Positions 12,694 to 44,259 of a DNA stretch of 55,527 nt are shown in pieces; position 1 is the first letter of the stretch, and each line of letters begins with the position of its first letter. Under the pieces are notes generated by a model. The model had not been told where the DNA came from and searched no databases. It saw only the letters and a program-made list of their open reading frames with translations. The position numbers were made by a program, and so were the translations under genes. The stretch covers positions 1-55,527 of IMG/VR virus record IMGVR_UViG_3300006929_000018. One strand, given 5' to 3'. This stretch comes from a virus.

Positions 12694-13512
12694 ATGATTA
12701 GTTATATAGGAGGTAAAAGCCGAATGGCTAAATGGATATCAGAATATATCCCAAAAGATATAGAATCCTACACAGAAGTGTTTGGAGGAGCTTTCTGGGT
12801 ATATATTAAAAGTGATGTACATACATTACCAAAATTAAAAAAAGTCGTTTATAATGACGTAAATAGGTTTATGGTTAATTTGTTCCAATGTTGTACAGAG
12901 CCATATTTCTTTAATAAACATATGGAAGAATCTGAAATCAAATCACAAAATGAAAAACTATTTTATGAATATCAAGAAGAAATAAAAAATACTTGTGATA
13001 TAGGTTTTAATGACTATTCATTTGACATGGCTATGAAATACGCTTACATAGCTACACAGGTATTTAGTGGTAGTAAAATTATGGAGTCTAAATATATAGA
13101 CCTTAAAGGTAAATATAATTCAAAATTTGATGCGTTTAGAAAAAGATTGATGAATCCTGATGTTATACAAAAATTGCACAAAATTACTAACTGTGAAAAT
13201 TTAGATTATACAGAATGTATTTCTAAATATGATGGAGTAGAAAGTTTCTTTTATGTAGACCCACCATATTGGAAAACTGAAAATTATTATTCTAATCATG
13301 ACTTTGATTCATTAGACCATGATACATTAGCTAAATGGTTACAGAATATAAGAGGTAAATTTGCACTATCTTATTATTATTTTGAAGAACTAGAACATAT
13401 GTATCCTAGAAAAGATTTCCGATGGGTGAGTAAAGAGTTTACAAAAGCTGCTGGAGCACAAAAAGGAAAGAAACAGAATAAAGGAGAAGAACTATTAATA
13501 ATGAATTACTAA
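12694..13512 (+). CDS. D12-class N6-adenine DNA methyltransferase
   Basis: A 272-residue Dam-like enzyme that methylates adenine N6 in DNA. Motif X is YIGGKSRMAKWI near the N-terminus, motif I is YTEVFGGAFW (residues 26-35), followed by VVYNDVNRFMVNLF, and motif IV is the catalytic DPPYW (189-193). Length is typical of D12 methylases (about 270). No cognate restriction enzyme is nearby, so it probably protects phage DNA from host nucleases or regulates phage genes. A 14-base gap precedes it and it shares TAATG with the next gene. Confidence 0.9.
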   Translation: MISYIGGKSRMAKWISEYIPKDIESYTEVFGGAFWVYIKSDVHTLPKLKKVVYNDVNRFMVNLFQCCTEPYFFNKHMEESEIKSQNEKLFYEYQEEIKNTCDIGFNDYSFDMAMKYAYIATQVFSGSKIMESKYIDLKGKYNSKFDAFRKRLMNPDVIQKLHKITNCENLDYTECISKYDGVESFFYVDPPYWKTENYYSNHDFDSLDHDTLAKWLQNIRGKFALSYYYFEELEHMYPRKDFRWVSKEFTKAAGAQKGKKQNKGEELLIMNY

Positions 13513-23009: not shown

Positions 23010-23363
23010 TTAAAAATCTTCCATTAATAATTCATCTATATATTCTTGTATCTCTTTTCTTGTCGCTTTTATAGCAAATGATATATCCGCTTGAAATCTT
23101 TTCATTTCCTCTCCATCTTTAAAAACAACTATTGTAGGTACTACAACTATTTCATATTTATTTTGAGCTTTAGTATTTTCAGCTATGTCTATATATTTTA
23201 TTTTATCTACATCAGTTAACTTTTTTAACCACGATACATCATTAGTACTATTCCAGCCAGCATTAAATTGTGTTACTGTTATTTGACTAAAAGATATATT
23301 TGTTAATAATACTAATAATATTATCAATAAATAAAGAGTAAATGTTTTTGGGTTTGCATTCAT
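23010..23363 (-). CDS. Exported thioredoxin-fold protein lacking CxxC (117 aa)
   Basis: After a hydrophobic leader (TFTLYLLIILLVLLTNISFS, about 7-26) the sequence follows thioredoxin: VTQFNAGWNST replaces 'F.A.WC..C', then KIKYIDIAENTKAQNKYEIV, the cis-Pro step VVPTIVVFKDGEE and MKRFQ. Both redox cysteines are absent, so it cannot do thiol exchange. It probably acts in the periplasm as a binding or folding adaptor for the Cys-rich secreted proteins encoded downstream. Coupled to the next gene by TAATG at 23,363. Confidence 0.65.
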   Translation of the reverse strand: MNANPKTFTLYLLIILLVLLTNISFSQITVTQFNAGWNSTNDVSWLKKLTDVDKIKYIDIAENTKAQNKYEIVVVPTIVVFKDGEEMKRFQADISFAIKATRKEIQEYIDELLMEDF

Positions 23364-25953: not shown

Positions 25954-28900
25954 TTATCTTATTATTGGTGATTCTTTTTCAGAACTACCACCATATATAA
26001 CTTTTCTAACTTCCTTATGTGTTTGACCAAATGGAGCTACTTCGTACTTTAATTCTGTTTCCCATTTTGGCGTTCCTTTCTCTGCTAGATAAGAATCTCT
26101 TTTTTGAGTTTCTCCACTTATAGCGTAATCTACAGTATTACCTATATTTTGAGCTGTTCCGAAAGACGTAGGTATTATTGTATAATTTATAAATCTGTCT
26201 ACATCCGTCATTACATTAATATCTTTATTTAACTTTTTTAAATGTCTTAAAACTATATCATCTTCACCATCATCGTCTAAAGCTAATATTAATAAAGAAA
26301 CTACACCAGCTAATCCTATACCCCTTATATAAGCTCCCATTTCTTTTTGTTGGTCCTCTCCAAGTTTGTCATATTCTTCTTTAAATGTAGCCATAGATAT
26401 ATCTCCATTAGTAAACCTACTCCATAAAGAAGATACATAACCACCAGCTGTTGTATAACTACCAGATTGAACTTCACCAAATCTATCTATATCACGCTGT
26501 TGGAATCTATCTCCCACCAATGTAAAATACCATTTTTTAAATTGTAAAGCAGCTCTACCTAAAGCGTAAGTACCCAACATTCTTCCGTCTAAAGCAGTGT
26601 ATCCCTCACCATGTAATGTAGATATTTTGTGATTTATCTGTCTAACTCTTTCTTGTGTAATTTCTCCTGAGCTATATTCTTCTTCTGTTAACATTCCCAA
26701 GAAAGCAGCTCCTTGTATATAATTTTCTGATTTATCCATAAAGAAAAACGACAATCTTTCTATCTTACCAAAAGCTCCTTTTTTATTATCTAAATGAACA
26801 AAATCACTAAAGCTATATTCTACTATTCTATGCTTTTTTAATATCTCTTGAGAATAGTTCCAATCTTGAAAATATCTTTTTTCTCCAACAACTAATTGTT
26901 TACCACCACGTTTACGGTACTCTTGATATTTACCAGCTAATATATTACCTACCGCGACCAACGGATTAAAACCTAAATATCTTAATGTAGTTAATCTAAC
27001 TAACCAATCTAATATCTTTTCTGCAGTATTAAGTTTTGGTCTTTTCTTTTCTAAGAAAGACTCTTTCCACCATCTTGTTAAATATTCGGCTGCATTTTTA
27101 TTACCATTTTCTTTATTAAACTGTATAATTGAATCTACTAACACCGACATGTTTTTCATTCCTACAAATGGATTTTCTTTTAGATTTATAGCATTACCAT
27201 AGTTATCTCTTTGTACGTCTCCATACTTAAATAAAGTACCTCTAATAAATTCTAATAGAGCTCCATTTAAATCCATAGACATGTGTTCAAATTCTGTAGC
27301 TTGTCTTCTTCTGTATTCTTCTATTAAAGCCTTGTCTGCTTCTGTAAGTTTGTCAGGAGATATTCCTTCTGCCATTTTTGATATAGCGTCACCGTCATTT
27401 AATAAGGCGTCTATTTCTGCGTCAGTTAAAACTATTTTACTACCGTCTTCATTTATACCCTGTTGTTTTAATTTCGTAGCTCTACGTTTCAGTTTTTCTA
27501 ATATAGCAGCGTTTGCTATTCTTTCTTTTGCTGTACCAGCACTTTTTAAGTATGTTCTTATGCTACTTAAAGACATTAGAACTTCTGTTCCGTTTATATC
27601 ATGATATAATTTAACATTTTCTACATTCATGTTTTTACCCATTCTCATATCATATAATCCAAATAATCCTTCTTTGCTAAACATTTCTAAATCACCCATC
27701 TGTATATTTTTTACAGCGTCTATTCTTTCTTGCCTTATAATGTTTCCAAACTTATCGTTCATTTCTCTATACAAATTCCAATAATCGTACTCTTCTTTAG
27801 TAATCTCACTTTTTTTATTTTTCATTTCTTCTGCAGAAATTAAAGTTATTCTACCTCCTTTTTCTCTATTGGTTATGTTACCATATAAAGTTTCATATCT
27901 TTCTGTCATATTCATTTGACCCTTTATCTTCTCTATAAGACCAATACCTTTAAGTTTAGATTCTATAAGTTTATCATGAGCTGCGTTTATTTCATTCGTA
28001 TACATTCTGTATCTAGATAAATAATTGTAGTAATTTTTTTCTATTTCATTTATCATATATTGTATCTCAGGTCTTCTAGATGTCATATTGTTAGACCCCA
28101 TCCATTTTCTTAACCATGATATATCTTCATTTTTAGAAGGCTTAACAAAATCATAGTTTTGTAAATCTGCTTTTTCTTGTAAATACTTTGTCTGTTTTTC
28201 AAATGCTCTTTGTGCTATTTCTTTTCTAATAATATGTTTAGCTCTATTAGTAGCAGAACTATCTAATCTATCTAACTTAGTCATAGCGTCATATAGATAT
28301 TCATCATCATGTTTTTGTAAAGATTCTAAATTTAATTTATCCGCTGTTAAATCTTCTGCTATTTCGTAATCTATTACATATTGAGAATACCTATCTTTTA
28401 ACCTTTTATAAATTAAACTATCTTTTTTGATAGAACCCATTGTAATACCCTTGTCTTCTACCCATTCTTTAAAAGATAATAAATCATTACTATCCATATA
28501 TTCTTTACCTTCACTTGTATATCTATTAAAAGCTTTTTTAGCTCTTTTAACTTCATCCGCAGCAGAAACATCCTGTATTTTATATATGTATATAGGTTTT
28601 TCTCCTTTTATAAAAGCTTTGTGATATTTATTTCCATTTTCTTTTATATCATCATAATTATCATATCCTTCACTACGAGCCCAAGAATCAAGATTTTTTA
28701 TGTCATCTATACTATTTCTTTTTATAGGAGGGCTAATACGTACCAGAGTATTTCCAGGTTTTATTAATTTAGTTATATCATTACCTGTATCATTATATGT
28801 ATTATAGCCATGACTAATAGTTTTTTTATTACCTGCTATTATAGCTTCTTCTTCTACAATATCTAGTGTCATTTTACCCACAACACCCTCTTCTTCTTTT

Positions 28901-31900
28901 ATTTGTTTACTTCTTTCTTCTAACTGTCTATCTATATTTATATCTCTTTGTTTTTCTTCCTGTATTCTTTCTTCTATTGATTCAATAAAACCTATAACAT
29001 CAACATTAGGACTTATTCTTTCTTGCATAGAATTTATAGTATTATCCATATATTGATTTATTTTACCTATAAACTTATCAGAAAATAAAGGAGATAAAGA
29101 ATCTTCTTTGAATCCAAATTCAAAAAACTTATATTCAATATTAAACATTAAAATTTGTTCTCTTTCTTTCAAATCATTAAATCCATTTCTCATTTGTTGT
29201 ATTTCTGATTCTGTAATAAATTCATTTAATAGTTGTTTATTTAAAACTACTTGTTCACGACCCTTACTATTTTTTACAATTTTCATAGATTTAAAAAACG
29301 TATTGTCTGGATTGGACTTCATAACCTTTTTTAATTCTTGTATTAATCTACTTTTAGTTAAATTAGGATATATAATATCTGTCATATTTTCTAACATTTT
29401 ATCAGATATTATTTTGTTGATTATTTTATTTTTTTGGTCCTTACTTTTGTATAGTAATCCTTTTTTATTATTATAAACTTCTTCCATTATGGACTGCATA
29501 TAAGGAGTGTATCTTATATCTGTTACAGAAGCTCTATTTAACATCGTTTCAAATAAACCTAAAGCGTGTGTCATAATAGGATTTTCAAAAAGTCCTCCCA
29601 TATTTCTTTTTTCGTCTCCTCTTATGTCATTAATCTTTTTTACTACACTCATCAATTCTAAAGGATTCTTTTCTATAGATTGATGTACTGTAAACGCTTT
29701 ACCTACAGGTTGAGCTACATCTTTATTAAATTGTTCTAAGTTATATATAAGACTTAATGTTTTGATTTGTTCTTTTGATAAAATAGCTTTTTCCCTCATT
29801 CCTTCTGCTTCAAATTCATCATATATAAATTCAACTGTCTCAGGAGATTGCTTGCTTAACCAATTAATAAAGTCTGAACTCTTTTTACCAGGTTTCTTTT
29901 TTGTTCCTAGTAATTGTTGTATAGTGGAATCAGAAGAAACAAATCTTTTACCATCTGTTGTTTTCTGCCATTGGAAATACTTTTGTACAATATCAGATGT
30001 GTATATATCTTTACATTCTTGTAAAGAATATCCTAATCTTCTAAGCATTACAAATCCTGCTACTGATTGTTCGTTTAGTCCTAGTCTTTCTGCATACTGC
30101 CATTTAGCGTTGTCTAATACTATATTAAGTAACTGAGCTAATCCAAACCAATTTCCTACTCCGTTTTCAGCGTTTCTATCGTCATAAAATTTATCCACTT
30201 TTCTTCCGTTAATATCTACTTCAAAACCTAGTTCTACGCCACTAACAGAAAATATATTCAAACTTCTTTGTAAAGCAGCTACAATACCTACAAGAGCTTT
30301 TGTAGGAACATTTTCTTTAAATGTTTTAGAATCTCCATGAGGAGTTAGTTGAGAGTCTGTTTTAGGTCTTTCTTTTCCAATTACCTTTTCTACATCTTTT
30401 TGAAAGTCTATATTTGCTGTAATTTCTTTTCTTACATCTTCTCTACTAACTAAGTCTACATATAAATCAAAAAATTCATTACTATCATTTCTCCAATCAT
30501 CAGATGATTTTATTTCATTTTTGTTGTATTTGAAGTTCATATGTACTGAGTCTCCATCTAAGTCAGCTCCCCAATATGCGGATACTTCGGCTGGTATGGT
30601 TATTTTAGACGTAGGACTTCCTTTTAATTGTCCATGAAATCCTTTTACTATAAATACACTTGTACTTACTTTACCATGCGAAGGTATTCTAGTTCCTAAA
30701 AATAAGTCACCTTCTTTAACTCCTTGTTTTTGTAAATAACCAGGCACGTAAGCTTCTGAAACTACAACCTTTTTACCATCTATAGTTCTTTCTTCAAAAG
30801 CTTTTAATCCCATCCCCAATGAAGACGATTGATAAGCTATACTCCCTTTTGTGTACATTTTAGTTCCTTTCTTAGCTACCCTACCATTAGCTATAGAATT
30901 GTACACAGAGTTCATTGCAGGGTATCTACCGTCTAGATTGCCAAATATTGAAGCAACTAACTGACCAAATACCGCTGGGTCAACAGAACCTTCAAATTTT
31001 TCCATTTCTTTAAATACATCTTTAGTTTTGGCGTCAGGAGAAGTAATCATACCTTCATCTAAATTTCTTTCTTTGTTAGCTTTTTCCATTACATTTTTAC
31101 GAAGCTCTAACATTCTATTTAGAATTTCAAAGTCTTTAGGACTATTCATATTGTTTGCTAAATTGTAAAACAATTGTGACGGAAAATATCTTTCTTCTTT
31201 TTGTTTGTCTAACTCTAATTGTATACCTAATCCCTTTCCACTTAAACCATTAAACTCCCTGTTTATATCATTTTCTTCACCTATCATAAACAGTTCATCC
31301 TGACTTTTTAATATATTGTCTAAATTCTCTTTATTTAAATTCCTAACATCATATATATATTTGCTGCCTTTTTTTCCGTTAATTCCATCAAACCAAAGTT
31401 TAGCTGAAGATTCAGAAGCAGCTATTACTAAGTGACCATGAGAAAACATATCAACATATTCTAAATTTGGTATAGTAGCAGCGGCTATACTTGTGTTTCT
31501 TTCTCTTAATATATTCGCTATGTTTTTATGTATTTCACTTGTAGCTTCCATATCAGGAGTTAACACTTGTACAGCAAATTTTAGATACGTAGTATTACCA
31601 TCTTCTCCTCTATAATTATATACAAACTTATATACACCTCCTACATCTTTAACTCCACCATATTTTTCTGTAATTATTTTTGCTTGTTGTGGTAATATGT
31701 ACCCCGCTGCATCATTCTCTATCCAAGCTTCCACTCCTTTAGGTATTTCGTTTTCTGTATATATATTACCTTCTTTATCTACATAATAATCTTTTGTAAT
31801 AACAGGTTCAAATGATGTTGTGTGGTCGTATGTTGTATGAGAAGCAATAGTACCAGCTAATCTTTTTATATAATCTACTTCATCCTTCGCTTGTTTGTGG

Positions 31901-34900
31901 TCATACCCTAACAACTGTTGAGCCATAAATTTATTAGCTATATAACTTGTTAAAAAATTCTTACGCTGCTCTACTGTACTGTTATTCCAAGATGTATTGT
32001 TTTCTAACAAATCAGGATTTTTAAAAAGTTCTAATAGAAATTTATCATATATTTTATCTATTTCTTTAATTTTATAATTACCCTGTTTATCTTTTATAAC
32101 AGTATAAGGAAAAACCTTGTCTCCTTTTATATATTTGTCTTTTAACGCTGGATTATTATATAATGTTCCTAAAACTTTATTTCTACTAACTACATCTGTT
32201 ATAGCTATAGATTTAACATAATATCTTCTACTTTTATCAGAAAATGTTCCAATTACTTGGTCGTATAATACCGACTCTCCTGCTTTTGATTTTTGCACAG
32301 CATTAAGATAATTATACATATCTATAGTCATCATTTCCGCTGGGTCTATTTGTGTCATAGTTTTAGCTCCGTTGTCCCATCTTTCTACACTATCTTGACC
32401 TGGATAATATCTATACATACCAGAATGAACAGTTATGTCAAATGGATTATCCATTATATCTCCAGTTTGACCACCTATTAATATATCCGCCTCATATTTC
32501 TCTTGTATCATTAATGAAAAAATATTATTTTTTGGGTTGAATATACTTTTCTTTCTTTTGTCTATATTTAATATTTTTTCTACCGAATCATAAGCTTGGT
32601 TATGTAGAGCGTTATTATTATTAAATATACTAATACCGTCACCTGTTACGTTGTCTACAATAGACAAATAGTTCATAGGTCTAGACAACACTAATACTTC
32701 ACTTAAAACTTGTTTAAAAGATTGCAAATTGTTTTCAAAATAATCATAAGCTTTTGCCCTTTCGTTTACTTTAGTTGTCCATTTTTCTGTATTTTTATTA
32801 AACAACATAAACTTACTATTTTTAAGACTTATTCCTTGTAACCCTGATTGTCTTTCAAAAAATACATCAGTTAAATACATAGGCTTTCCATTCCATATTA
32901 TAGTTTCGTTTAATATAGCGTCTATATCTATTCTTTCAAATCCGTCTGTATTTTTAAATAATGTTTCTATTATAGCTACTACACCATCATTTTTAGAAAT
33001 TGAACTAAAATTATTTTCACTTACTTTATTATATATATTTTCTATCTCTGCTCTTTTTTGTTGTTTTTCCGCTTCTGTAGAATTAGTCCAACTGTCTATC
33101 ATTCTAGTTATAACACTTTGTTCTGTTGTTCTGCTTAATAAAACCCTATCTTGCCACAAATATTCTCCAGTATCTTTGATAAGTAATCTATCTCCCTGTA
33201 ATCTTTCAATTACCATACTTTGAAATATATTAGATATTTGTAATAATTTAGCGTCTGTATAGTTTTGATTTTCAAATACTTTATTATCTAATATAGATAA
33301 CATTTGCTGTATTTCAACAGAGTTACTTTCTCTAACCATTCGTATAAAATCTTCTGGATTTCTTTTAACGGATTTAGCTAAACTATATAATTGATACATT
33401 AATTTTTTTCTTTCAAAAGGAGATTCAGATTTTACATTATATATTTCCGCTACAGCTTTGAAAAAATTAGTTAAAGTTTTAGGCATATTCATGTTCTTTA
33501 ACTCTTCGTTATGTAAATCCGCTTGATTTAAATCTGTCTCATCGTTAAGCTCCTCCTCTTCAAATTGTATCATTAATTGTTTACCTTCCTCGGTTTCTAA
33601 TCCTATTCCTTTTTCTTTTACTATAGCTTCCAATAATAATTTATCACTATTAGCTAAATTCTTTTTATATTTAGGATTAGTCGTATATAATACCGCTCGT
33701 ATATATTGTTTTAATTGTTCTATCTTTTTATCTTCTAGAGATTCTGAATTTATTAATCCAGATTTATTTATTCTTTTTATTACATTATCCACTATTTGTT
33801 CGTCTTCCAAACCTTTGCCTAATTCATAATTTAAAAACGTATGAACTAACGCATATTCTGTAGCTTTTCTAAACGCTGCTTTTTTAGCTCTTTTTATTTC
33901 TCCATAACCTGAGTTTTTGATAACACCTTTTTTACCGAAGTTTAAGAGTACGTGTTTCATTGCAGCTTCTAATGTAAGGGTAGGTAATACATCGTCTACT
34001 TTATTTAAAAATTCCCTAGCTTCTTCATCCGTAGCAAGGTTTTTAGTTTCTTTATAAAATTTAACTAAATCTTCTTCTAATTGTTTTTGTACTTTACTGT
34101 CTTTTATAATTGCGTTTAACGAACCATAACTATTAGCTTCTAATGACCTTACGAAAGATTCTTCCAGTAAGTGTTTCTGTTTCAAATTGCTTAATTTTTT
34201 AGCTATAGCTCCACCCCTTCTTTTAGTAGTAAGTTGTGTAATAAGAGACACATATAACTCTGATGTTTTTGTATCGTCTACACCTTCATTTTTTACAATA
34301 TTTGTTATAATATCTTTTATATCACTTTGTATGTTATTGTTGTTATTTATAATACCTTTCTGTAATTCTACGAAAGTTCCTACTGTCATTACAGTTCCGT
34401 CTATATCAATTAATGTTAATTCTGGATATTGTATAGAAGTTAAATCAAATATATCTGACTTTACTAAAAGTTTGTTAATTCTTTTGATTAATGGTGATTC
34501 CTCTTGCATTCTATACCAAACGTGACCACCTTCATGTATTATATCTGTGCCTACTGTACCACCTTCTTTTATAAGTAATGTACTACCTATAGCTAATGAA
34601 ACAGCTTCATTTCCAAAAGCATCTAAAAGTTGCCCACTAATTACATACGCTTGGTCTGCTGGTATTAGATTTTTTTCTAATAGTTTTTGCAGCATAACAT
34701 ATTCTCCTAACCCAGCGTTTGTATATACTTCATGGTTTCTTCTAGGTACAGCTCCATCATATTTTTTGAATGTATTATCTTCACTAGGCTTAGTTATCTT
34801 ATCTTTTATTTTAGATTTAATTTTTTTAAAACCTGATACAATCTTTTCTTTTGTTTCTTTGACTTTTTCTTTTACTGTTGTAGTTTTCTTAGCTCTTGTT

Positions 34901-37809
34901 ATTTGCTCGTCTTTAACATCATAATCCCTATATTCAATAGTACCTATTACTTGTCCATCTACTTCAGCTACCATTTTATATTGGTATAAATCATTATTGA
35001 ATTGAAAAAATAATTGTCCGTCTATTTTAATTACATCTTTTCCACCTTCTTTTGGTAAAATTAATTTTATTTTGACTGGTATATTATCTTGATTTATATA
35101 TCTAGCTAAGAAATTATTTATAGTTTCGTTACCTACTTTACCCTCTCTATTGTAGAATTTTATTTTACTACCTTTACTATCTGTAATAGTATAACTACTA
35201 CCTCCTTTTGTAGGTACAATAGATTTAGCTCCTACTATAATTTCACCACCTTTTTTAGCTATAGTTTCGGCTAATTTTTTTACTTTTTCTAATATTGGAA
35301 TTTTTTTACGAACCTTTTCAGACTTAGGTTCTTCAGGTAATTTTAATTGTTTTTGTTCAGTTTCTGCTTTTTTTTTACCTGTATCTTGCTTTGATGACCA
35401 GTCTGCCCAAGACTCTGTTATAGTTCCGTCTTGTTTTCCTTTAAGATATTCTTCTGCTTTTTTATAAACGTCAGGTGTAACTCCAGCCATACCTTTCATT
35501 TTCTTTTTCAGTTCATTAAAAGCTCTTTTTATTTGTTGTGGAGTTTTTGATTTCTTTAGTATTCTTTCAGTTCTATCTACAGCGTCAGATACATTTTTTT
35601 CAACAACTTTTGTTCTTTTTCCTGTTAAATCTTGTACCGCTTCTACTCCTTTTTTACCTACACTTTTTACCGTTTTAACTCCCTTTTTAGCCACTCCTTT
35701 TATGGCGTCAATAGCTTTACCTAAAAATCCTTTAGAGTCTTGTTCTTTTTGATATTGTTTATATTCCTGTACAGTCATGCCAGCTTCTTTAGCTTGTTTA
35801 GCTGTCATTCTTTCTTGACCTTTTTGTGTGTATTGTTCGTACTCTTCTGATGTAAGTCTTTCTTTATATCTTTTGTCTACCTTTCCTTCTTTTGTTAAAA
35901 TTTCTTCTTTTTGTAAATAAAAATTTTCTATTTCGTTTTTAAGTTTTTTTTCTTCAACTTGTAATTCATTTAGAGCAGATTTCTCTTCATTATTTATTTT
36001 GTTAATAACAGATTGTTGTTTTTCTTTAGAAACATTTTGTTTTACCTTTTTTCTTTTTTCTTCATAGATTGACTTTACTTGTTCTTGTTGTGAATTATTT
36101 CTTGTTAATCTATTTTCTCTGTAAAAAACCTGTTTTGCTCCAGATTCAGTAAGAGTTGTGTTAACAGAATGTTTATCATAATTTTCTACCATTCTGTCTA
36201 TAGTCTTAAAAATATTGTCTCTACCTTCTTCTGTTAACTTTCCTTCTTCTACTTGTTTTTCTATAACTCCTTTCATAACAGTTCCATCACCATTATGATT
36301 CCACACGTGGTCCGCAACTAATTCATCAGATAGATTTTGATAATCTCTCATTACTTCTGGATTGTATGTTCCGTCTTCGTTTAGTAATCTTAACTGTTCT
36401 GTTTTTTGTAATTTTTCATCTAACATTTTAGACCTCTCTGCTTGAGCATCTACAGCTCCTCTAGTACCACCCATTGCCGCTCCTAAACCTACAGATGTCC
36501 AGAATATATCTCTAGCTTCTTTTGTAAATGTACCGTCAGCATTTGTTATCCAGTCTGTATAAGATTCGTAATCTTTACCTTGTTCTTCTTGTAAGTTTGC
36601 GTATTTTATCCATTCTTGATATGTTTCTTGTAATCCTTCTGTATATCCCTCTACACCCGCATAAGCTCCCGCTGTAGGTAATACAGTCCCAGCTCTTCCT
36701 AATAATGGTTTTATGATACCAGCTATACTTTTGCTAAATCCTGCTGGTTCTGGACTAAGTCTAGCTATTTTACTCATTTTAAAGTTTTTACCAAGGCCTC
36801 CAAATAATATACCATATTGCACAACATCTAACGCAGCCCATTTGGCATTATCCCAAACAACTCCACTAGCAGCATTTGCAGCTTGTTCTTTACTTAATCC
36901 CATTTTTATACCCTGACTATATGTTTCTCCTCCTAAGTAAGCTCCTTCAAATAAATTGGCTGTTATACCCCCTCCAATTGCTCCTGTCCATCTTTCAGCT
37001 CCTTTTGTTAGTACCATTCCTTTTTTACCAGCATCTATTGCGATATGTTTAGCTAGTCCACTTCCTCCTACTCTGTTAGTACCATATAATAATTTTGCAA
37101 CTTTAGAACCCTGTTGTGTTGTAGCAACCATTCTTCCTGCTTGACCTATTCTTCCTGTCTTAGCTAATCCTATAAGTGCTCTACCCCCAAATCTAGTAGC
37201 AGCAAAAGCTCCACCTCCATACGGTATCATAAATGAAGCCGCGTATGGTAATAACCTAGCAACTTTATGTGACCAAAATTCTGCCTTAAACATATCTGTA
37301 AATGTAAGGTCTTGTAAATCTTCTGATACAATTAATAAATTTTCATTTTGAAACTCTTGGCCTTTTTTCTTTAACCATTCTCCCACTGATGTATTAGGGT
37401 CTGGGTCATTAGGACTTACTAAAGCAGATAGATAATCTATTGTATCTCCTGTTCCATACACTAAATCTCCCCATCCCGCTCTTAAGGCTCTACCTGTGTC
37501 TGATACAAAATCACCCATAACTGCATCAGGGTCGGTCATATATAAACTTCCTGTTTCTACGTCACCTCTCATAGGGTCTACTAAACCTTGTGTAAGGTTT
37601 TCTCTCATTTGACCTTGAGCAACGCTTCTATAATAGTTGTCTATATTTTGTTGTTGTTGCACTTCTTGTTCACTAGGACCTAGTAAACTTTGAAATATTT
37701 CTGATGTACTCTGTGCGTTGTCATATCCCTGTATAGCTTCTGATGGTAATTGTACATTTGGGTCTAAATCACCACTAGGTAAATATGTTTCTTCGTATTT
37801 TTCAGCCAT
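25954..37809 (-). CDS. Giant virion protein with RNA-polymerase-like DLDGD site (3,951 aa), candidate virion RNA polymerase
   Basis: Residues 2416-2420 are DLDGD within SAYWGADLDGDSVHMNF, matching the metal-binding DxDGD loop of the second double-psi barrel of multisubunit and crAss-type RNA polymerases. The preceding GTRIPSHGKVSTSVFIVKGF and SSLGMGLKAFEE steps match the run-up in crAss-like virion polymerases. HEGGH at 1092-1096 is a zinc-peptidase motif. N-terminal residues about 190-460 are hydrophobic and Gly-rich, with EGLQETYQEW typical of ejected proteins. Residues about 570-1,040 are a charged, Lys-rich coiled-coil region. A membrane segment lies near the C-terminus (GIGLAGVVSLLILAL). 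At 3,951 residues it is far longer than the roughly 2,200 of characterised crAss-like polymerases. Likely packaged and ejected with DNA. Polymerase activity is inferred from motif and context. Confidence 0.7.
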   Translation of the reverse strand: MAEKYEETYLPSGDLDPNVQLPSEAIQGYDNAQSTSEIFQSLLGPSEQEVQQQQNIDNYYRSVAQGQMRENLTQGLVDPMRGDVETGSLYMTDPDAVMGDFVSDTGRALRAGWGDLVYGTGDTIDYLSALVSPNDPDPNTSVGEWLKKKGQEFQNENLLIVSEDLQDLTFTDMFKAEFWSHKVARLLPYAASFMIPYGGGAFAATRFGGRALIGLAKTGRIGQAGRMVATTQQGSKVAKLLYGTNRVGGSGLAKHIAIDAGKKGMVLTKGAERWTGAIGGGITANLFEGAYLGGETYSQGIKMGLSKEQAANAASGVVWDNAKWAALDVVQYGILFGGLGKNFKMSKIARLSPEPAGFSKSIAGIIKPLLGRAGTVLPTAGAYAGVEGYTEGLQETYQEWIKYANLQEEQGKDYESYTDWITNADGTFTKEARDIFWTSVGLGAAMGGTRGAVDAQAERSKMLDEKLQKTEQLRLLNEDGTYNPEVMRDYQNLSDELVADHVWNHNGDGTVMKGVIEKQVEEGKLTEEGRDNIFKTIDRMVENYDKHSVNTTLTESGAKQVFYRENRLTRNNSQQEQVKSIYEEKRKKVKQNVSKEKQQSVINKINNEEKSALNELQVEEKKLKNEIENFYLQKEEILTKEGKVDKRYKERLTSEEYEQYTQKGQERMTAKQAKEAGMTVQEYKQYQKEQDSKGFLGKAIDAIKGVAKKGVKTVKSVGKKGVEAVQDLTGKRTKVVEKNVSDAVDRTERILKKSKTPQQIKRAFNELKKKMKGMAGVTPDVYKKAEEYLKGKQDGTITESWADWSSKQDTGKKKAETEQKQLKLPEEPKSEKVRKKIPILEKVKKLAETIAKKGGEIIVGAKSIVPTKGGSSYTITDSKGSKIKFYNREGKVGNETINNFLARYINQDNIPVKIKLILPKEGGKDVIKIDGQLFFQFNNDLYQYKMVAEVDGQVIGTIEYRDYDVKDEQITRAKKTTTVKEKVKETKEKIVSGFKKIKSKIKDKITKPSEDNTFKKYDGAVPRRNHEVYTNAGLGEYVMLQKLLEKNLIPADQAYVISGQLLDAFGNEAVSLAIGSTLLIKEGGTVGTDIIHEGGHVWYRMQEESPLIKRINKLLVKSDIFDLTSIQYPELTLIDIDGTVMTVGTFVELQKGIINNNNNIQSDIKDIITNIVKNEGVDDTKTSELYVSLITQLTTKRRGGAIAKKLSNLKQKHLLEESFVRSLEANSYGSLNAIIKDSKVQKQLEEDLVKFYKETKNLATDEEAREFLNKVDDVLPTLTLEAAMKHVLLNFGKKGVIKNSGYGEIKRAKKAAFRKATEYALVHTFLNYELGKGLEDEQIVDNVIKRINKSGLINSESLEDKKIEQLKQYIRAVLYTTNPKYKKNLANSDKLLLEAIVKEKGIGLETEEGKQLMIQFEEEELNDETDLNQADLHNEELKNMNMPKTLTNFFKAVAEIYNVKSESPFERKKLMYQLYSLAKSVKRNPEDFIRMVRESNSVEIQQMLSILDNKVFENQNYTDAKLLQISNIFQSMVIERLQGDRLLIKDTGEYLWQDRVLLSRTTEQSVITRMIDSWTNSTEAEKQQKRAEIENIYNKVSENNFSSISKNDGVVAIIETLFKNTDGFERIDIDAILNETIIWNGKPMYLTDVFFERQSGLQGISLKNSKFMLFNKNTEKWTTKVNERAKAYDYFENNLQSFKQVLSEVLVLSRPMNYLSIVDNVTGDGISIFNNNNALHNQAYDSVEKILNIDKRKKSIFNPKNNIFSLMIQEKYEADILIGGQTGDIMDNPFDITVHSGMYRYYPGQDSVERWDNGAKTMTQIDPAEMMTIDMYNYLNAVQKSKAGESVLYDQVIGTFSDKSRRYYVKSIAITDVVSRNKVLGTLYNNPALKDKYIKGDKVFPYTVIKDKQGNYKIKEIDKIYDKFLLELFKNPDLLENNTSWNNSTVEQRKNFLTSYIANKFMAQQLLGYDHKQAKDEVDYIKRLAGTIASHTTYDHTTSFEPVITKDYYVDKEGNIYTENEIPKGVEAWIENDAAGYILPQQAKIITEKYGGVKDVGGVYKFVYNYRGEDGNTTYLKFAVQVLTPDMEATSEIHKNIANILRERNTSIAAATIPNLEYVDMFSHGHLVIAASESSAKLWFDGINGKKGSKYIYDVRNLNKENLDNILKSQDELFMIGEENDINREFNGLSGKGLGIQLELDKQKEERYFPSQLFYNLANNMNSPKDFEILNRMLELRKNVMEKANKERNLDEGMITSPDAKTKDVFKEMEKFEGSVDPAVFGQLVASIFGNLDGRYPAMNSVYNSIANGRVAKKGTKMYTKGSIAYQSSSLGMGLKAFEERTIDGKKVVVSEAYVPGYLQKQGVKEGDLFLGTRIPSHGKVSTSVFIVKGFHGQLKGSPTSKITIPAEVSAYWGADLDGDSVHMNFKYNKNEIKSSDDWRNDSNEFFDLYVDLVSREDVRKEITANIDFQKDVEKVIGKERPKTDSQLTPHGDSKTFKENVPTKALVGIVAALQRSLNIFSVSGVELGFEVDINGRKVDKFYDDRNAENGVGNWFGLAQLLNIVLDNAKWQYAERLGLNEQSVAGFVMLRRLGYSLQECKDIYTSDIVQKYFQWQKTTDGKRFVSSDSTIQQLLGTKKKPGKKSSDFINWLSKQSPETVEFIYDEFEAEGMREKAILSKEQIKTLSLIYNLEQFNKDVAQPVGKAFTVHQSIEKNPLELMSVVKKINDIRGDEKRNMGGLFENPIMTHALGLFETMLNRASVTDIRYTPYMQSIMEEVYNNKKGLLYKSKDQKNKIINKIISDKMLENMTDIIYPNLTKSRLIQELKKVMKSNPDNTFFKSMKIVKNSKGREQVVLNKQLLNEFITESEIQQMRNGFNDLKEREQILMFNIEYKFFEFGFKEDSLSPLFSDKFIGKINQYMDNTINSMQERISPNVDVIGFIESIEERIQEEKQRDINIDRQLEERSKQIKEEEGVVGKMTLDIVEEEAIIAGNKKTISHGYNTYNDTGNDITKLIKPGNTLVRISPPIKRNSIDDIKNLDSWARSEGYDNYDDIKENGNKYHKAFIKGEKPIYIYKIQDVSAADEVKRAKKAFNRYTSEGKEYMDSNDLLSFKEWVEDKGITMGSIKKDSLIYKRLKDRYSQYVIDYEIAEDLTADKLNLESLQKHDDEYLYDAMTKLDRLDSSATNRAKHIIRKEIAQRAFEKQTKYLQEKADLQNYDFVKPSKNEDISWLRKWMGSNNMTSRRPEIQYMINEIEKNYYNYLSRYRMYTNEINAAHDKLIESKLKGIGLIEKIKGQMNMTERYETLYGNITNREKGGRITLISAEEMKNKKSEITKEEYDYWNLYREMNDKFGNIIRQERIDAVKNIQMGDLEMFSKEGLFGLYDMRMGKNMNVENVKLYHDINGTEVLMSLSSIRTYLKSAGTAKERIANAAILEKLKRRATKLKQQGINEDGSKIVLTDAEIDALLNDGDAISKMAEGISPDKLTEADKALIEEYRRRQATEFEHMSMDLNGALLEFIRGTLFKYGDVQRDNYGNAINLKENPFVGMKNMSVLVDSIIQFNKENGNKNAAEYLTRWWKESFLEKKRPKLNTAEKILDWLVRLTTLRYLGFNPLVAVGNILAGKYQEYRKRGGKQLVVGEKRYFQDWNYSQEILKKHRIVEYSFSDFVHLDNKKGAFGKIERLSFFFMDKSENYIQGAAFLGMLTEEEYSSGEITQERVRQINHKISTLHGEGYTALDGRMLGTYALGRAALQFKKWYFTLVGDRFQQRDIDRFGEVQSGSYTTAGGYVSSLWSRFTNGDISMATFKEEYDKLGEDQQKEMGAYIRGIGLAGVVSLLILALDDDGEDDIVLRHLKKLNKDINVMTDVDRFINYTIIPTSFGTAQNIGNTVDYAISGETQKRDSYLAEKGTPKWETELKYEVAPFGQTHKEVRKVIYGGSSEKESPIIR

Positions 37810-37810
37810 G

Positions 37811-39997
37811 TTATCTGTTTAATGTAAAATATTTGCTCCAATCCCTACTTGTTTTTCTAAATTTCTTGAATGTTTCTTTGTCTGTATTTTTACTATAGTA
37901 ATCTAAAAAGGCTTGTGGTCCTTTCATTAATGCTTCTTTTAATCTTGCGTTATTTGGATTATTTAAGCTTGAACTTAAATTACTAGTTACCTGCTGCATT
38001 AATATATTTTGTTTTTCTCTATCTCCTCCTGATTCTTTTTCTGTTTCTGTTAATAACCAACTCATTACTAATGGAGATGATAAATTCGCATTCTCCGCAC
38101 TCACGCCCCCTACTACTAAACTAGTGTCTATACTTTGTTTATATGAATTTGCTACCTCTGGTAATACCTGTGTATTTCCTTCTGTATAAATATCTGCTAA
38201 ATTTTGATGTAATGCTGTTTTTTGTTTTAAATAAAAAGCTTCATTTTTTTGTTTAGTCTCATATGATAATGATTCGTTGTATACTTTGGATAATGATTCA
38301 CTATCTGTAGTTTTATCCATTTGTTGTCTAAACGCTACATTGTTTAAGTCTACAACATCATAATACATATCATCTGAAGAAGTATAGTCTGTGTCTATAA
38401 ATTCGTTTACCATTACTACTTCTACAGGCATATTCCCATACTCACTCATTATTTTTTTAATATCTGATTCATCACTATCTTTTGTTACTAAAAATGATGT
38501 AGGTTGTCCTGTTTGTTTGTCTAATCCTCTAACTCTAAATCCTAAATATGAACCATTATAATTTAGGTCCATTTCTTCACCTTCGCCAAAAGGATTCCAT
38601 CCTAAAGCTCCGCCAATAAAACCACCTCCAAAACCTACACCAGAACCAATAGCTGTTCCTACACCTGGAACTACTGAGCCAACCGCTGCTCCTCCTACTG
38701 TAGTTGCGGCTCCCGCTTCTATTCCTCTTTCCCACCATGTTCCAGATACATCGTCATCTGTAACCATAGTTCCAGTTTCTGTATATAAACCTCTAACTTT
38801 CATACCATACAACTTTTTGTTTTCTGCGTTGTATTGTTCCCCATAATGAGCTTTTAATACTGACGTTTGTAATGCTGGGTCTGTTAAAATTTGTCCTGAA
38901 GCTAATAATTGATGACCCGCTATAACATTTGTACCTCCAAGTTTACTATGAGGTCTAGAATTTGCGTCATACCCTCCTAACATTTGCCATATATCACTAT
39001 AAGCTGTTCCTGATTGTGGGTCTCTACCTTCTAATAAAGCTGCAAACCCACTTCTTCCTTGTCCTCCTGTACCTGAACCTATTTTATTTTCCATATTAAA
39101 GACATCTTTAATAGTTAGAGGTCTGTCTATTGTTCCTGTATAGTTTGCGAATAAAGCCGGTAATTCATCAAGATTACTTTGAAATTGCTTTACATAACTT
39201 GTTGGTATTTTCTTTTCACCATATACTGGTTCTCCAGTCCAATTTAAAGCGTCTTTAATCCAAGTATGAACCGCATCTGGATTTTGTTGTAATGTACCTA
39301 CGTCTATACCAGTATCTCTTGACATATCTGATAAGACCGCGTGCATGTTATGAGCGTAAAATGTCTCTACGTCTATCTCTTGCCCCATATCAGTATCTTC
39401 TATCATACTACTTATATCATAATCTCCTCTTATTCCAGAAAACTGAAAATCATCTGTTTCTCCAGATATAAATTGATTATATCTATCATAGTCACCAGGC
39501 ATTATTAAACTACTTGTTTGTTCATTTTGTTGAGCAGCTATAAACTTTTCTAAGTTAGCTTTATTTTGAGAAACTCTTTGTAATATTGGATTTCCCTGTG
39601 TAGGGTCAGAATTAGGATTATTAATATTCATTTTATATTTATTCATATAATAATCTAAATTCCCATACAATCTAGCTTGTGTAATATCTCCATTATATTT
39701 AGTTATGATATCCTTTACATCACCCCATCCTGAATGTTCAGAATGCCATTTCTTCATATCGTCTATATCTTTTTGTCTACCAAAAGAACTATTTAATATT
39801 TGATTTGCTGAAGATGTAGCTTGTTCTAATTGTAATTGATATCTATTTTGTTGCTCTATTCTTTGACTTTGTTGTTGTTGCAACATCTGTATCAACTGTA
39901 ATTCTTTCATTTGAGCAGCGTCTCTTTGACTCCTTCTATCTTGAGCAGACTGATACCCCGAGCTTAATGTTGACCAAAAACCATAATCTATTGCCAT
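37811..39997 (-). CDS. Internal or ejection virion protein (728 aa)
   Basis: The N-terminus is a Gln-rich coiled coil (AAQMKELQLIQMLQQQQSQR). The middle is globular with many Asp/Tyr residues. Near residues 425-465 a glycine-zipper stretch (GGAAVGSVVPGVGTAIGSGV) could insert in a membrane, followed by a hydrophilic C-terminal half. Between the giant polymerase-like protein (1-base gap) and the GH19 protein (2-base gap), this fits an ejection or cargo protein that helps form the DNA channel through the envelope. No family is recognised with certainty. Confidence 0.55.
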   Translation of the reverse strand: MAIDYGFWSTLSSGYQSAQDRRSQRDAAQMKELQLIQMLQQQQSQRIEQQNRYQLQLEQATSSANQILNSSFGRQKDIDDMKKWHSEHSGWGDVKDIITKYNGDITQARLYGNLDYYMNKYKMNINNPNSDPTQGNPILQRVSQNKANLEKFIAAQQNEQTSSLIMPGDYDRYNQFISGETDDFQFSGIRGDYDISSMIEDTDMGQEIDVETFYAHNMHAVLSDMSRDTGIDVGTLQQNPDAVHTWIKDALNWTGEPVYGEKKIPTSYVKQFQSNLDELPALFANYTGTIDRPLTIKDVFNMENKIGSGTGGQGRSGFAALLEGRDPQSGTAYSDIWQMLGGYDANSRPHSKLGGTNVIAGHQLLASGQILTDPALQTSVLKAHYGEQYNAENKKLYGMKVRGLYTETGTMVTDDDVSGTWWERGIEAGAATTVGGAAVGSVVPGVGTAIGSGVGFGGGFIGGALGWNPFGEGEEMDLNYNGSYLGFRVRGLDKQTGQPTSFLVTKDSDESDIKKIMSEYGNMPVEVVMVNEFIDTDYTSSDDMYYDVVDLNNVAFRQQMDKTTDSESLSKVYNESLSYETKQKNEAFYLKQKTALHQNLADIYTEGNTQVLPEVANSYKQSIDTSLVVGGVSAENANLSSPLVMSWLLTETEKESGGDREKQNILMQQVTSNLSSSLNNPNNARLKEALMKGPQAFLDYYSKNTDKETFKKFRKTSRDWSKYFTLNR

Positions 39998-39999
39998 TT

Positions 40000-42900
40000 T
40001 TATTCTTCTGTTGTATTTGTATTATTGTTCCCTGTATTATCAAGAGGGTTTTGTAGATTAAATCCACTTAGATACCCTCCTACTTCTGTTCCTTTCTTTA
40101 TTAAATCTAACAAAGCTGTATTACTTGAGCCCATACTACCCATAGCGTTAGCAAAAGTTAATCCAGCAAATTCTGACGCTGCTTTCTTATTAGCTAATTG
40201 CATTTGTAGATTTTCTGTTCTTTTAGCTTCTTTTTGTACTGAGTCAAAGTTTTCTTTATATAACAATAAATCAGAATATTGTTTTTGATTTTCTCTTTGT
40301 AAAGCCGCGTCTTGATTTGCAAACTCTAATAAAGCTAATGACCTTTTAGCGTCTAAAATACCTGAATTAGCTAAAAACTTAGCTCTATCCCCTGCAGTTC
40401 CTCTTACGCTATTATCTAACCCTTGTTGGTAAGCTTTGTCTATACCTGTTCTAATTTTTAATTCTTCTTCTGGGTGATAACCTTGTTTTGCTAATTCTTT
40501 TGTTTCTCTTAAATGCTCATAAAACATAGGGCTTAACCTAGCTTGTTCTTCTGGTGTAACGTCTTTCATTGCAGCCGCTAACGCTTTTTTACCCATAACA
40601 GCGTTTACTAAAGCTTCTGGACCTCCAAACGCAGACATTATACCTTGAGCTGCGTCTACTGTACTTTTTAATATATCCTGTCCTGTTGGTCCCTGACTTC
40701 TATCCTCTGTTTCTGTTTCGTCTAAGTTTGGGTCTACTTCAAACGCTTCTGGGTCTATATTGTATATAGCGTCTATATCAGTGGCTAACATGTCAGCGTC
40801 ATAAGTTCCTGTAGCAGGGTCATAAGCTAGATAATTTGGGTCTTTCATTTTATCTAACAATTCAATTTGCTCTTCTGTCAACCCATCTACGTTTTCTAAC
40901 GCTAATATTTTATTTAATCTTTGTTGTTGTTCGTAATCTAATGTTCTTAAACCATTTTGTAACATATGCCTATCTTGCGGCAATACATTTGCATTGTACC
41001 ATCCAGAGGTCCTAAATTGACTATACTCTACATCTAATTGTTTTTTTCCGTAATTTGGATTATAATCTGGGTCATCTGGTCTATCATTACCAGTCATATC
41101 TGGCTCCATTTTTTTATCTAACCATTCTTTACTGACATAATAGGTTTGTCCATCCCTCATGTCGTAAAGTTCATACAAGCCTAATCGTTGAGCTCTAGTT
41201 GTGTTTTCTTTTGTTAGAAATCCTGAAGTTTCGTCACCCTTAGCTAAATCTACTACTTTTGCTGTAGCTTCATTTTCTTTTATAATTCTTTTTCTACTAT
41301 GATTATATGTATTAAAATCTTGTATATCTTGCCTGTCACCATCCTTTTTTAATCGGAATATTTTATCTGCTACTGTAGGGTCAGTACTTATGTCTACATA
41401 TTCGTCTGTTCTTTTATTATAAGTAGTTGCTTGTTCCCCTTCAGTAGGTTGTTCTATCGTTGTTTTTTCTGATAGACCTGACAGTTCATTATAAGTATTT
41501 AAAATTTGTGTTTTTTCTTCTTCTGAACCAGTAAACGTGCCATCTTGTATTTTTTGATAATCTTCTTCTACAGTTCCCAACGCTTGTTGCTTTGCGTCAT
41601 TATACCACATATTTAATTGTGTAATATCATTATTTTGAATAGCTCTATTTAATGTATTTAAATCAATTGCTCCGTCAGGGTCATAATTTTTCTTTAACTC
41701 TAAATATTCTAAAGCTTCTTGTAATGTATTTCTTTCTGTTTCTAATGCCGTTATATCATCTTCATTTTCCGCTACAGATATTCTTTCGTCTATTTTAGAT
41801 AATTTAGTTTTTAAATCGTTTCTTAATTCTGTTTCTGAATTTTTATCACTCCACTCTACCTTTTTTTCTTCTTCTGTTTCTTGTACTAATCTTTCGCTTT
41901 TTTCATCGTCAGTTTCTCTTATTCCTGTTTCTTGTTCATTTTTATTTCTTTGTTCTTCTAAATCTCTTAACTCAGCTTCTTGTATATCATATTGTTCATT
42001 AGTTAATCTTCCTCTTCCTGCCGCTTCATTAGCGTCTCTTTCTGACTCTTCCTGTACATTTGTTTGATATAATTCCTCTGGATTCCAATTACCGTAATCT
42101 CCTTCTATTTCTTCAATTCTAATTAAGTCCTCTGGCGAAGCGGTTCCATCGTTTTTCTTTTCTTGTAATGTATTGTATTCTGCTATATCGGCTTCTCTTT
42201 GTTTCCTTTCTTTATTTGTTTCTAAAACTCCTGTTTCTAATTTATTTAACTCTCTTTCTTCATCTAATATTTCTTCATGAACATTAAATCTTTCTTCAAA
42301 ATCTTCTTCAAAATCTTCTGATAAAACCACGTCTTCTATAGACATTCCTTTATATTTTTCTGCTAATTCAGGATTTTGATTTATCATTCTTTGAGTGGCA
42401 GGACCATATTCATTTATTTCGTTTAGAGCGTATTCTACATCATACTCTATCCATTCTTTATCATCTTCTGTTAATTCAGACTCATCTGTATAACCATAAT
42501 TTTCTATAGATTCTTTTGTGTATTTATCTCTTAACCTATCCTCTAACGATTTTTCATCTTCTACACTTTCAACTTCTAAACCTTCTTCTACAACAGGAGT
42601 ATCTTCTTCTTCTACTACAGTTGTTTCGTCTTCTGTCGTTACTTCATCCTCTTCTGTATCTTCCTCTGCAACTTCTATTTCTCCTTCATTTTCCTCTACT
42701 ACTTCTTCTTCTATTATAACTTGACTTTCTGTATCTTCTTCTGTATCTACTTCTGCAGGTTTTTCCATAGTCATAGCGTCTTCTACGCTAATTCTTTCAC
42801 CATCTTTTTCTGCTTTTATAAAAGAGTCTTCTACCCCTAATTCTGTTATTTCTTCTAATAATTTATCTGCGCTAGATTTATTGTATAACGGACCATCTTC

Positions 42901-44259
42901 TGGTACAGTCACTATGTGTGCGTTAAGTTCACCTTTTATAAATTCAGTTTGTACTAAATATCCCTCTGCTTTTAATTTTTCTATTTTTTCTTTTAATTCT
43001 CCTGTAGGTTCTCCTACGGAAACTCCTATTTGTACTTTATATACAGGAAAAGTTTCTTGTGGCTCCCAATTTAATCCATCTTCACTTTTATTATATATTG
43101 TTCCATCTACCATTATTGATTCGTCTTCTATTCCTGCTGGAACGTCTTGCAGTGAAGGAAAAGATTTTATTTCTGGTTCTTCTATTATTTCTGTTTCTAT
43201 TGGTTCTAAAGGGGTTTCTCCTAAATAAGGGTCCCCTTCTTCAATAATATCTTGGCTATATACTGATATTTCTCTTTCTAAAGCTTCACTATCATTTAAT
43301 AATTCATTTTTTAAATTATTATCTGGTTGGTCATTTAATACCTTTATAGCTGTTTCTATATCTTCTTCTGAATACCCTTGGTCTTCCAGGTTTTTTCTAT
43401 AGACTTCATCCATATTTATATCATCTCTTCCTCCATCTGATAATATTTGATTACCTTCTACGCCATCTGTAATATCATAATCTCCATCGGTATTATCATA
43501 AACATCAGCAGCTTGTCGAGTTAATCTGTCATTACTTGATTGCGGGTTTGTTATATTGTGCAGTTTGTCTATAGCATCCGCGTCTCCTGCTTTTATTTTC
43601 TCTATATCTTCTTCACCTATATATCTCGGTGAATTAGGGTCAAACATACCTCTATGCTCACAAAAAGCTACTAAAATTGCAGCAGAGTATCTTTCGTCTG
43701 CAGCTAATTCTGGATTAGCTACTAAATCAATGTCTATACCATTTCTGTTTAATATTCTAGTTACATTTTCATAATTTGACCTTCCTGTTAATTGTACTCC
43801 TCCTCTACCCCTATATGTCCATCCATCATCATCTTCGGTGTTACCTATTCTACCACTATAAACTACATTAAATAATTCTTGTTGCCTAGAGTCTATAACA
43901 CTTTGACTTAACTGTCCTCCATTAACATCTTGACTATTAGCTGTATGAACCGAACCTGCCCATTCCCATAATTCTTTTGGTATTGTTTTACCATTTGCTG
44001 TTGTTACAGATTCTCCAACTATTTCTCCGTTTTCATCGTACCACCCCATTCTAGTTGCGTATCTACCTAAACTTGAATCAGGACTCCCTCCAAATTTTTC
44101 AAACATTCTATCGCGACTATAATAAGCTGATTCTGTAGCTGTACCACTTCTACTTTCTATACCATTAAGTATATATAATAGTTTTATTTGCTCGTCATTA
44201 AGACCAGCTCTTTTAGCTTCAGCGTCTATTGTTTTTCTAAAACTTTTTGGGTTTGCCAT
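40000..44259 (-). CDS. Virion cell-wall protein: GH19 muramidase + SPOR + internal virion region (1,419 aa)
   Basis: Residues 1-220 form a GH19 chitinase/endolysin-type domain: GIESRSGTATESAYY with E35 and E43 in the positions of the two catalytic glutamates, and GWTYRGRGGVQLTGRSNYE at 146-164. Residues about 403-490 look like a SPOR domain (VYKVQIGVSVGEPTGE ... GELNAHIVTVPEDG), which binds denuded peptidoglycan. A very acidic Glu/Thr segment follows (about 500-580), then long charged helices and a C-terminal part like internal virion proteins. It would locally open the wall during DNA entry. It shares TAATG at 44,259 with the protein upstream. Confidence 0.75.
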   Translation of the reverse strand: MANPKSFRKTIDAEAKRAGLNDEQIKLLYILNGIESRSGTATESAYYSRDRMFEKFGGSPDSSLGRYATRMGWYDENGEIVGESVTTANGKTIPKELWEWAGSVHTANSQDVNGGQLSQSVIDSRQQELFNVVYSGRIGNTEDDDGWTYRGRGGVQLTGRSNYENVTRILNRNGIDIDLVANPELAADERYSAAILVAFCEHRGMFDPNSPRYIGEEDIEKIKAGDADAIDKLHNITNPQSSNDRLTRQAADVYDNTDGDYDITDGVEGNQILSDGGRDDINMDEVYRKNLEDQGYSEEDIETAIKVLNDQPDNNLKNELLNDSEALEREISVYSQDIIEEGDPYLGETPLEPIETEIIEEPEIKSFPSLQDVPAGIEDESIMVDGTIYNKSEDGLNWEPQETFPVYKVQIGVSVGEPTGELKEKIEKLKAEGYLVQTEFIKGELNAHIVTVPEDGPLYNKSSADKLLEEITELGVEDSFIKAEKDGERISVEDAMTMEKPAEVDTEEDTESQVIIEEEVVEENEGEIEVAEEDTEEDEVTTEDETTVVEEEDTPVVEEGLEVESVEDEKSLEDRLRDKYTKESIENYGYTDESELTEDDKEWIEYDVEYALNEINEYGPATQRMINQNPELAEKYKGMSIEDVVLSEDFEEDFEERFNVHEEILDEERELNKLETGVLETNKERKQREADIAEYNTLQEKKNDGTASPEDLIRIEEIEGDYGNWNPEELYQTNVQEESERDANEAAGRGRLTNEQYDIQEAELRDLEEQRNKNEQETGIRETDDEKSERLVQETEEEKKVEWSDKNSETELRNDLKTKLSKIDERISVAENEDDITALETERNTLQEALEYLELKKNYDPDGAIDLNTLNRAIQNNDITQLNMWYNDAKQQALGTVEEDYQKIQDGTFTGSEEEKTQILNTYNELSGLSEKTTIEQPTEGEQATTYNKRTDEYVDISTDPTVADKIFRLKKDGDRQDIQDFNTYNHSRKRIIKENEATAKVVDLAKGDETSGFLTKENTTRAQRLGLYELYDMRDGQTYYVSKEWLDKKMEPDMTGNDRPDDPDYNPNYGKKQLDVEYSQFRTSGWYNANVLPQDRHMLQNGLRTLDYEQQQRLNKILALENVDGLTEEQIELLDKMKDPNYLAYDPATGTYDADMLATDIDAIYNIDPEAFEVDPNLDETETEDRSQGPTGQDILKSTVDAAQGIMSAFGGPEALVNAVMGKKALAAAMKDVTPEEQARLSPMFYEHLRETKELAKQGYHPEEELKIRTGIDKAYQQGLDNSVRGTAGDRAKFLANSGILDAKRSLALLEFANQDAALQRENQKQYSDLLLYKENFDSVQKEAKRTENLQMQLANKKAASEFAGLTFANAMGSMGSSNTALLDLIKKGTEVGGYLSGFNLQNPLDNTGNNNTNTTEE

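Follow-up and report, generated by a model that had tools for sequence, protein, structure and literature searches.

A 3,951-residue late protein of a divergent crAss-like phage carries a predicted single-chain virion-type RNA polymerase core with a DLDGD loop

The giant late protein encoded by a linear 55,527-base IMG/VR virus record (the window) is very probably an RNA polymerase that a divergent crAss-like phage packs into its virion, with packaging argued by analogy to phi14:2 and crAss001. A two-barrel core of the crAss or QDE-1 type, which an earlier note had proposed from the motif, is supported by homology, conserved catalytic residues and the predicted fold. The features are listed in Table 1.

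Table 1. Features of the window, with residue numbers (aa) for parts of the giant protein
Feature	Residues	Window position	Strand	Basis or remark
DUF932 protein		3225-4100	+	early block
DnaB helicase		6212-7498	+	early block
HU-like protein		7690-7944	+	early block
Rad52-like protein		7922-8383	+	early block
RecE-like nuclease		10076-10861	+	early block
Radical-SAM protein, spore photoproduct lyase family		11822-12679	+	early block; TIGR03886, Pfam SPL
Dam-type methyltransferase		12694-13512	+	early block
780-aa late protein		20507-22849	-	signal-peptide-like start, many GC.D..A.NY.P.AN.DDGSC repeats
Small thioredoxin-like protein, hydrophobic N-terminus		23010-23363	-	late block; TIGR01068 E 6.7e-6
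3,951-aa late protein, single-chain virion-type RNA polymerase core		25954..37809	-	uninterrupted ORF; full-length homologues; dN/dS 0.16
gp49-like C-terminal domain	about 3562-3927	26029..27129	-	hhalign
Strongly hydrophobic helix	3826-3844	26278..26334	-	mean Kyte-Doolittle 2.03 over 19 residues
RNA polymerase core	about 1945-2600	30010..31977	-	hhalign E 1.1e-23; Foldseek to 6VR4 E 1.9e-22
Candidate bridge helix/trigger loop (LVGI..A, LDNAK)	about 2490-2600	30010..30342	-	post-barrel conservation, D2566 and K2569
Putative catalytic barrel (DPBB-A, beta-prime type)	about 2319-2430	30520..30855	-	seven predicted strands around DxD loop
DLDGD, D2416/D2418/D2420, predicted Mg2+ ligands	2416-2420	30550..30564	-	invariant in 59 homologues
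GTRIPSHGKVSTSVFIVKGF block, invariant R2374 and P2376	2372-2391	30637..30696	-	invariant alignment columns
Putative second barrel (DPBB-B, beta type), with K2077 and K2137	about 1999-2210	31180..31815	-	model strands; lysine conservation
Zincin-like segment	about 1067-1230	34120..34611	-	HEGGH 34522-34536 (H1092, E1093, H1096)
728-aa neighbour, candidate ejection protein		37811..39997	-	weak tail/tape-measure PHROGs matches
1,419-aa neighbour, lysozyme/GH19-like domain		40000..44259	-	phrog_181 endolysin E 3.8e-22
1,699-aa stabilization protein, Crassvirales type		46279..51378	-	crAss-like tblastn matches; phrog_28748 E 9e-45

Within the giant open reading frame, SAYWGADLDGDSVHMNF covers residues 2410-2426 (window 30532-30582, minus strand), and GTRIPSHGK precedes DLDGD; both the motif and the preceding block are present on the minus strand where the earlier note had placed them. 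We take the GTRIPSHGKVSTSVFIVKGF block to be the counterpart of the NRAP block of cellular beta-prime. The same segment occurs at 100% identity in a second assembly (L002). DLDGD is the only DxDxD in the 3,951 residues, with 0.94 expected per protein of this composition and length, and DxDGD is expected 0.07 times per protein of the same length given the composition. DxDxD loops are common at that rate, so an acidic motif could have arisen by chance in a structural protein of no relation to polymerases, where it might, for instance, form a loop that binds calcium or another metal. This reading is vanishingly improbable and is refuted by a profile match extending beyond the motif, which covers more than 600 residues in all and reaches to both sides of it, together with a Foldseek match showing that the predicted fold is that of an RNA polymerase.

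A tblastn search with residues 1904-2670 matched crAss-like phages only, in features named RNA polymerase, among them those of crAss001 gp50 and its relatives (E 6e-6). Scans of viral contigs revealed close relatives in 25 other contigs (41-100% over the core), all of which carry GADLDGD, whereas the wider crAss-like phage set carries G[SA]DFD[VI]D. The homologues are intact at full length, with 3,698-4,100 residues, in 17 other contigs. In an alignment of 59 sequences, Q2212, R2374, P2376, G2414, D2416, D2418 and D2420 are invariant, and K1982, R1983, D2033, K2077, K2137, D2566 and K2569 are at least 90% conserved. Conservation of the three aspartates among homologues, which the earlier note had set as a test of its proposal, is therefore complete in this alignment. 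They are the counterparts of D1361, D1363 and D1365 of phi14:2, with DLDGD aligned to DFDID.

Profile comparison by hhalign, in which a profile of the DLDGD clade only was aligned with a profile of crAss-like polymerases only (phi14:2 gp66 first), gave a probability of 99.6 and an E-value of 1.1e-23 over 616 columns. The region upstream of the motif block alone matched the crAss-like polymerases at E 1e-6 over 338 columns, and the region downstream alone at E 3e-12 over 180 columns, whereas reversed-sequence controls gave no significant match (E 0.1-0.3). As either side matches by itself and the controls are clean, the homology extends across the core, beyond the common motif. A profile termed A3 matched 6VR4 at E 1.6e-161, which we do not count as independent since A3 includes crAss-like sequences. 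PHROGs and Pfam searches with the whole protein and with the core yielded no convincing family, phmmer against the PDB found no match for the giant protein, and an HMM of the clade only retrieved no PDB sequence at E 10.

The structure of residues 1660-2840 was predicted by AlphaFold2 without templates, with a pLDDT of 79 and a pTM of 0.78. Structural similarity search against the PDB returned 12 matches at E <=0.001, all of them two-barrel RNA polymerases. The best match is phi14:2 gp66 (PDB 6VR4), with an E-value of 1.9e-22 and a TM-score of 0.60 by query, followed by QDE-1, Arabidopsis RDR2 (Pol IV-RDR2 complex), P23-45 gp96 and gp64-type enzymes; against a viral structure library, mostly crAss-like proteins were matched. 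The comparison with phi14:2 gp66 and QDE-1 that the earlier note had suggested thus recovers both. Two strand-rich regions lie in the expected places, and the barrels were located by strands and alignment, in addition to the global match to 6VR4, QDE-1 and the P23-45 polymerases; the boundaries of DPBB-A were inferred from the alignment to crAss-like polymerases. The fold supports homology, yet it is not independent of the sequence comparison, because 34 crAss-like sequences are in the alignment of the model.

On this model, the core would be a single-chain two-barrel polymerase. One of its double-psi barrels would bind the catalytic Mg2+ ions through D2416, D2418 and D2420, and the other would contact the substrate through lysines. 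Structural roles are known for giant virion proteins, and the catalytic loop is DLDGD, not DFD[VI]D as in other crAss-like phages; this might be expected of a catalytically dead relative that keeps the fold for ejection or as a scaffold but no longer makes RNA. We consider such a loss very unlikely. The three aspartates, R2374 and two lysines are kept across a clade whose core identity is mostly 44-50%. Against the two nearest relatives, the gene as a whole has a dN/dS of 0.16; in the core the ratio is 0.09-0.12, the lowest or near-lowest along the giant chain. The gene is under purifying selection. Moreover, DxDGD is the form found in active cellular beta-prime subunits and RNA-dependent RNA polymerases. 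The same form occurs in P23-45 gp96 (PMC10770324).

Among the known systems, phi14:2 gp66 resembles the giant protein most, being its best structural match with a collinear core, the same catalytic residues and a late virion position. It differs in its length of 2,180 residues, its DFDID loop, a separate downstream gp49-like gene and a 100-kb genome, and the two share 14% identity in the Foldseek alignment. The polymerases of crAssphage LMMB and Whopevirus (Intestiviridae) are likewise single chains, of 4,070-4,627 residues, in which the core is fused to a gp49-like C-terminal domain, and a protein annotated as a zincin fusion is encoded directly upstream of the RNA polymerase gene. However, they carry DFD[VI]D, and their HExxH is in a separate gene, without detectable relation to the zincin segment of the giant protein. 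P23-45 gp96, the tail tape measure protein and virion RNA polymerase of a Thermus siphovirus, is also a giant virion chain with polymerase, metallopeptidase and transmembrane parts and a DFDGD loop (PMC10770324), but its polymerase is N-terminal with a clampless flat structure, and its structural match is much weaker (E 3.7e-4). QDE-1 and plant RDR2 share the single-chain two-barrel fold (E 1e-5 and 5e-5) and DxDGD; they are cellular RNA-silencing enzymes, however, and neither phmmer nor the clade HMM found a sequence match to them.

These comparisons also bear on size. That the protein is almost twice as long as the characterised phage examples holds against phi14:2 gp66 only, and not against longer crAss-like polymerases or P23-45 gp96. 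crAssphage LMMB has a polymerase of 4,070 residues, Whopevirus ctbg_1 one of 4,407, and open frames of crAss-like polymerases in IMG/VR reach 5,500-5,714 residues. A place among the largest single-chain RNA polymerases can therefore not be upheld beside crAss-like frames of 4,070-5,714 residues and the 5,002 residues of P23-45 gp96. The latter, with its metallopeptidase and transmembrane domains, already joins the parts whose fusion had seemed remarkable (PMC10770324), so the claims of unusual size and unusual fusion both fall.

Apart from the core, the chain contains a zincin-like segment and a gp49-like C-terminal domain. The HExGH motif is invariant in 18 full-length homologues, and E1216 and E1217 downstream of it are invariant in the clade, but the peptidase-like part claimed in the earlier note is weak, as the model of the HExGH region (pLDDT 66, pTM 0.40) gave no significant PDB match and no zincin fold. 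The HExGH segment matched the N-terminal part of gp49-like proteins (hhalign E 1.2e-7, 95 columns), and the C-terminal domain matched the last 440 residues of crAss001 gp49-like proteins with a probability of 99 and an E-value of 4.5e-18 over 358 columns. In other phages, the gp49 C-terminal domain either belongs to the gene directly after that of the polymerase or is joined to the C-terminal side of the polymerase itself. The claimed membrane-active part is weak, resting on one hydrophobic stretch, the sole strongly hydrophobic helix of the chain.

In the DLDGD clade, the order within one chain is HExGH segment, core and C-terminal domain. Several other crAss-like phages have the core, a zincin-like segment (its histidine lost in some) and the C-terminal domain, whereas in Intestiviridae one gene encodes an N-terminal/zincin fusion and the next a core/C-terminal fusion. 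Given the latter arrangement, a simple fusion could account for the order in the clade. The N-terminal region also matches the Intestiviridae N-terminal/zincin-fusion protein weakly (probability 80, E 1.4e-5), which points the same way. We had considered this order as unique to the clade and dropped the idea, as the adjacent Intestiviridae genes would yield the same order.

The giant gene lies inside a long minus-strand late block with the stabilization, lysozyme-domain and ejection-like proteins, and the late-module gene order is similar to that of Crassvirales. Orthologues of the 728-aa neighbour are present in all four contigs of relatives examined. These contigs, of 65.7-68.4 kb, share one gene order with differing start points, and one of them (G006) has a gene set at both ends as diverged copies; the differing starts and the end repeats indicate that the genome is probably circular or permuted, with a length of ~65 kb. 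Crassvirales records were matched first, at ~25-31% identity, by the window stabilization protein (tblastn) and by the TerL and major capsid protein of the clade, the last two of which also matched Flavobacterium phages. A 604-aa gene in the relatives is TerL by tblastn; the PF03237 and phrog_2 profiles did not detect TerL in them. By these matches the genome is crAss-like, and its ~65-kb relatives apparently form a separate, undescribed lineage, compared with 95-105 kb for other crAss-like genomes.

In an unrooted tree of the polymerase core only, to which the usual caution on long branches applies, a long branch (SH-aLRT 99) sets the DLDGD clade apart. One contig, L126 (IMGVR_UViG_3300030060_006367), adjoins the clade (97), and all DFD[VI]D sequences lie opposite. 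L126 carries DHDGD and the common N-terminal region (E 1.4e-14), and has no HExxH. It is a distant relative and an intermediate lineage.

The position among late virion genes would fit a particle-delivered enzyme that transcribes early genes. We propose that the giant chain would be made late and packed into the capsid alongside the ejection proteins encoded next to it, and that it would be driven into the cell before or together with the DNA. The injected polymerase would then transcribe the early block (plus strand, with DnaB, HU, Rad52, SSB and nuclease genes), and the late block would subsequently be transcribed by the host polymerase. Packaging, injection and early-gene transcription are here modelled on phi14:2, for which mass spectrometry underlies the annotation of gp66 as a structural protein, and on crAss001, in whose virions mass spectrometry found the polymerase proteins gp47, gp49 and gp50 (PMC10172136). 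Structural likeness to the RNA-dependent RNA polymerases QDE-1 and RDR2, of which DLDGD is the motif, might instead suggest an active two-barrel polymerase that is not virion-delivered but, like P23-45 gp64, is both made and used intracellularly, or one whose task is RNA copying or DNA priming instead of early transcription. We regard this as extremely unlikely, given that ejection-like proteins are encoded on either side of the late-strand gene, that its product includes a gp49-like virion-cargo sequence, and that the closest studied relatives are virion proteins transcribing early genes (PMC7886860, PMC10172136).

In keeping with the proposed course of transcription, the gaps before early and late genes differ in five contigs of the clade. 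The Bacteroidota -7 consensus TAnnTTTG precedes late genes in 23 of 50 gaps (2.7 expected) and early genes in 13 of 51 (5.1 expected). By contrast, a TATATTTAGCTGTT-like element is found in 9 of 51 early gaps (0.2 expected) and in none of the late gaps. Early elements resembling TAATATATTTAGCTGWT are located at 4151, 4262 and 11656 in contig G010, at 53530, 53640 and 62724 in G008, at 2665 and 61226 in G007, and at 1492 and 66804 in G006. The TAATATATTTAGCTGTT-like early element occupies two separate early places in three of the four relatives and is doubled at the first place in two contigs. In the window, the early element has 6 matches (2.6 expected), not above chance, with a weak one at 7577-7590 containing two mismatches. 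As a lead, the TAATATATTTAGCTGWT-like element is a candidate promoter for early genes or the virion polymerase. Separately, TTTTGCTCCCTG is exactly conserved ~102-108 bases before a late gene (53320-54255, minus strand) in all five contigs.

Two further proteins of the window deserve mention. The radical-SAM protein matched TIGR03886 at E 3.7e-94, below the cut-off, and Pfam SPL at E 1.1e-24, above the cut-off; it is possibly a phage enzyme for repair of DNA photolesions. The 780-aa late protein had no match in Pfam or NCBIfam, and by eye its end resembles a Bacteroidota type IX secretion sorting signal, which suggests a Bacteroidota host. A scan of GTDB genomes for a host or prophage gave 100 pattern matches, none of which encodes a relative.

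A more far-reaching proposal is that one virion polypeptide combines a full polymerase with an active zincin, which would free or position the polymerase after injection, and with a gp49-like domain associated with the membrane. Its carriers would be a separate crAss-like family with ~65-kb genomes, one that has kept the cellular-type DxDGD and has its own TAATATATTTAGCTG-like early promoter. Taken as a whole, this combination is unlikely.

crAss-like virion RNA polymerases, their large size and their fusions are known already, and the protein represents neither a new polymerase class nor a record in size. What is distinctive is a separate clade, with 25 other contigs, that has DLDGD instead of DFD[VI]D and ~65-kb genomes, and that holds the HExGH segment, the polymerase core and the gp49-like C-terminal domain in one chain. 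Altogether, the findings add to the crAss-like virion RNA polymerases those of a lineage whose genomes are small (~65 kb) and whose loop is the DxDGD of cellular polymerases and silencing RNA-dependent RNA polymerases. The other crAss-like polymerases sampled all have DFD[VI]D, except for the one distant DHDGD contig, and this contrast helps to ask which form is ancestral. In addition, the lineage offers a compact one-chain version, with HExGH segment, polymerase and gp49-like domain, for studying the injection of a large enzyme.
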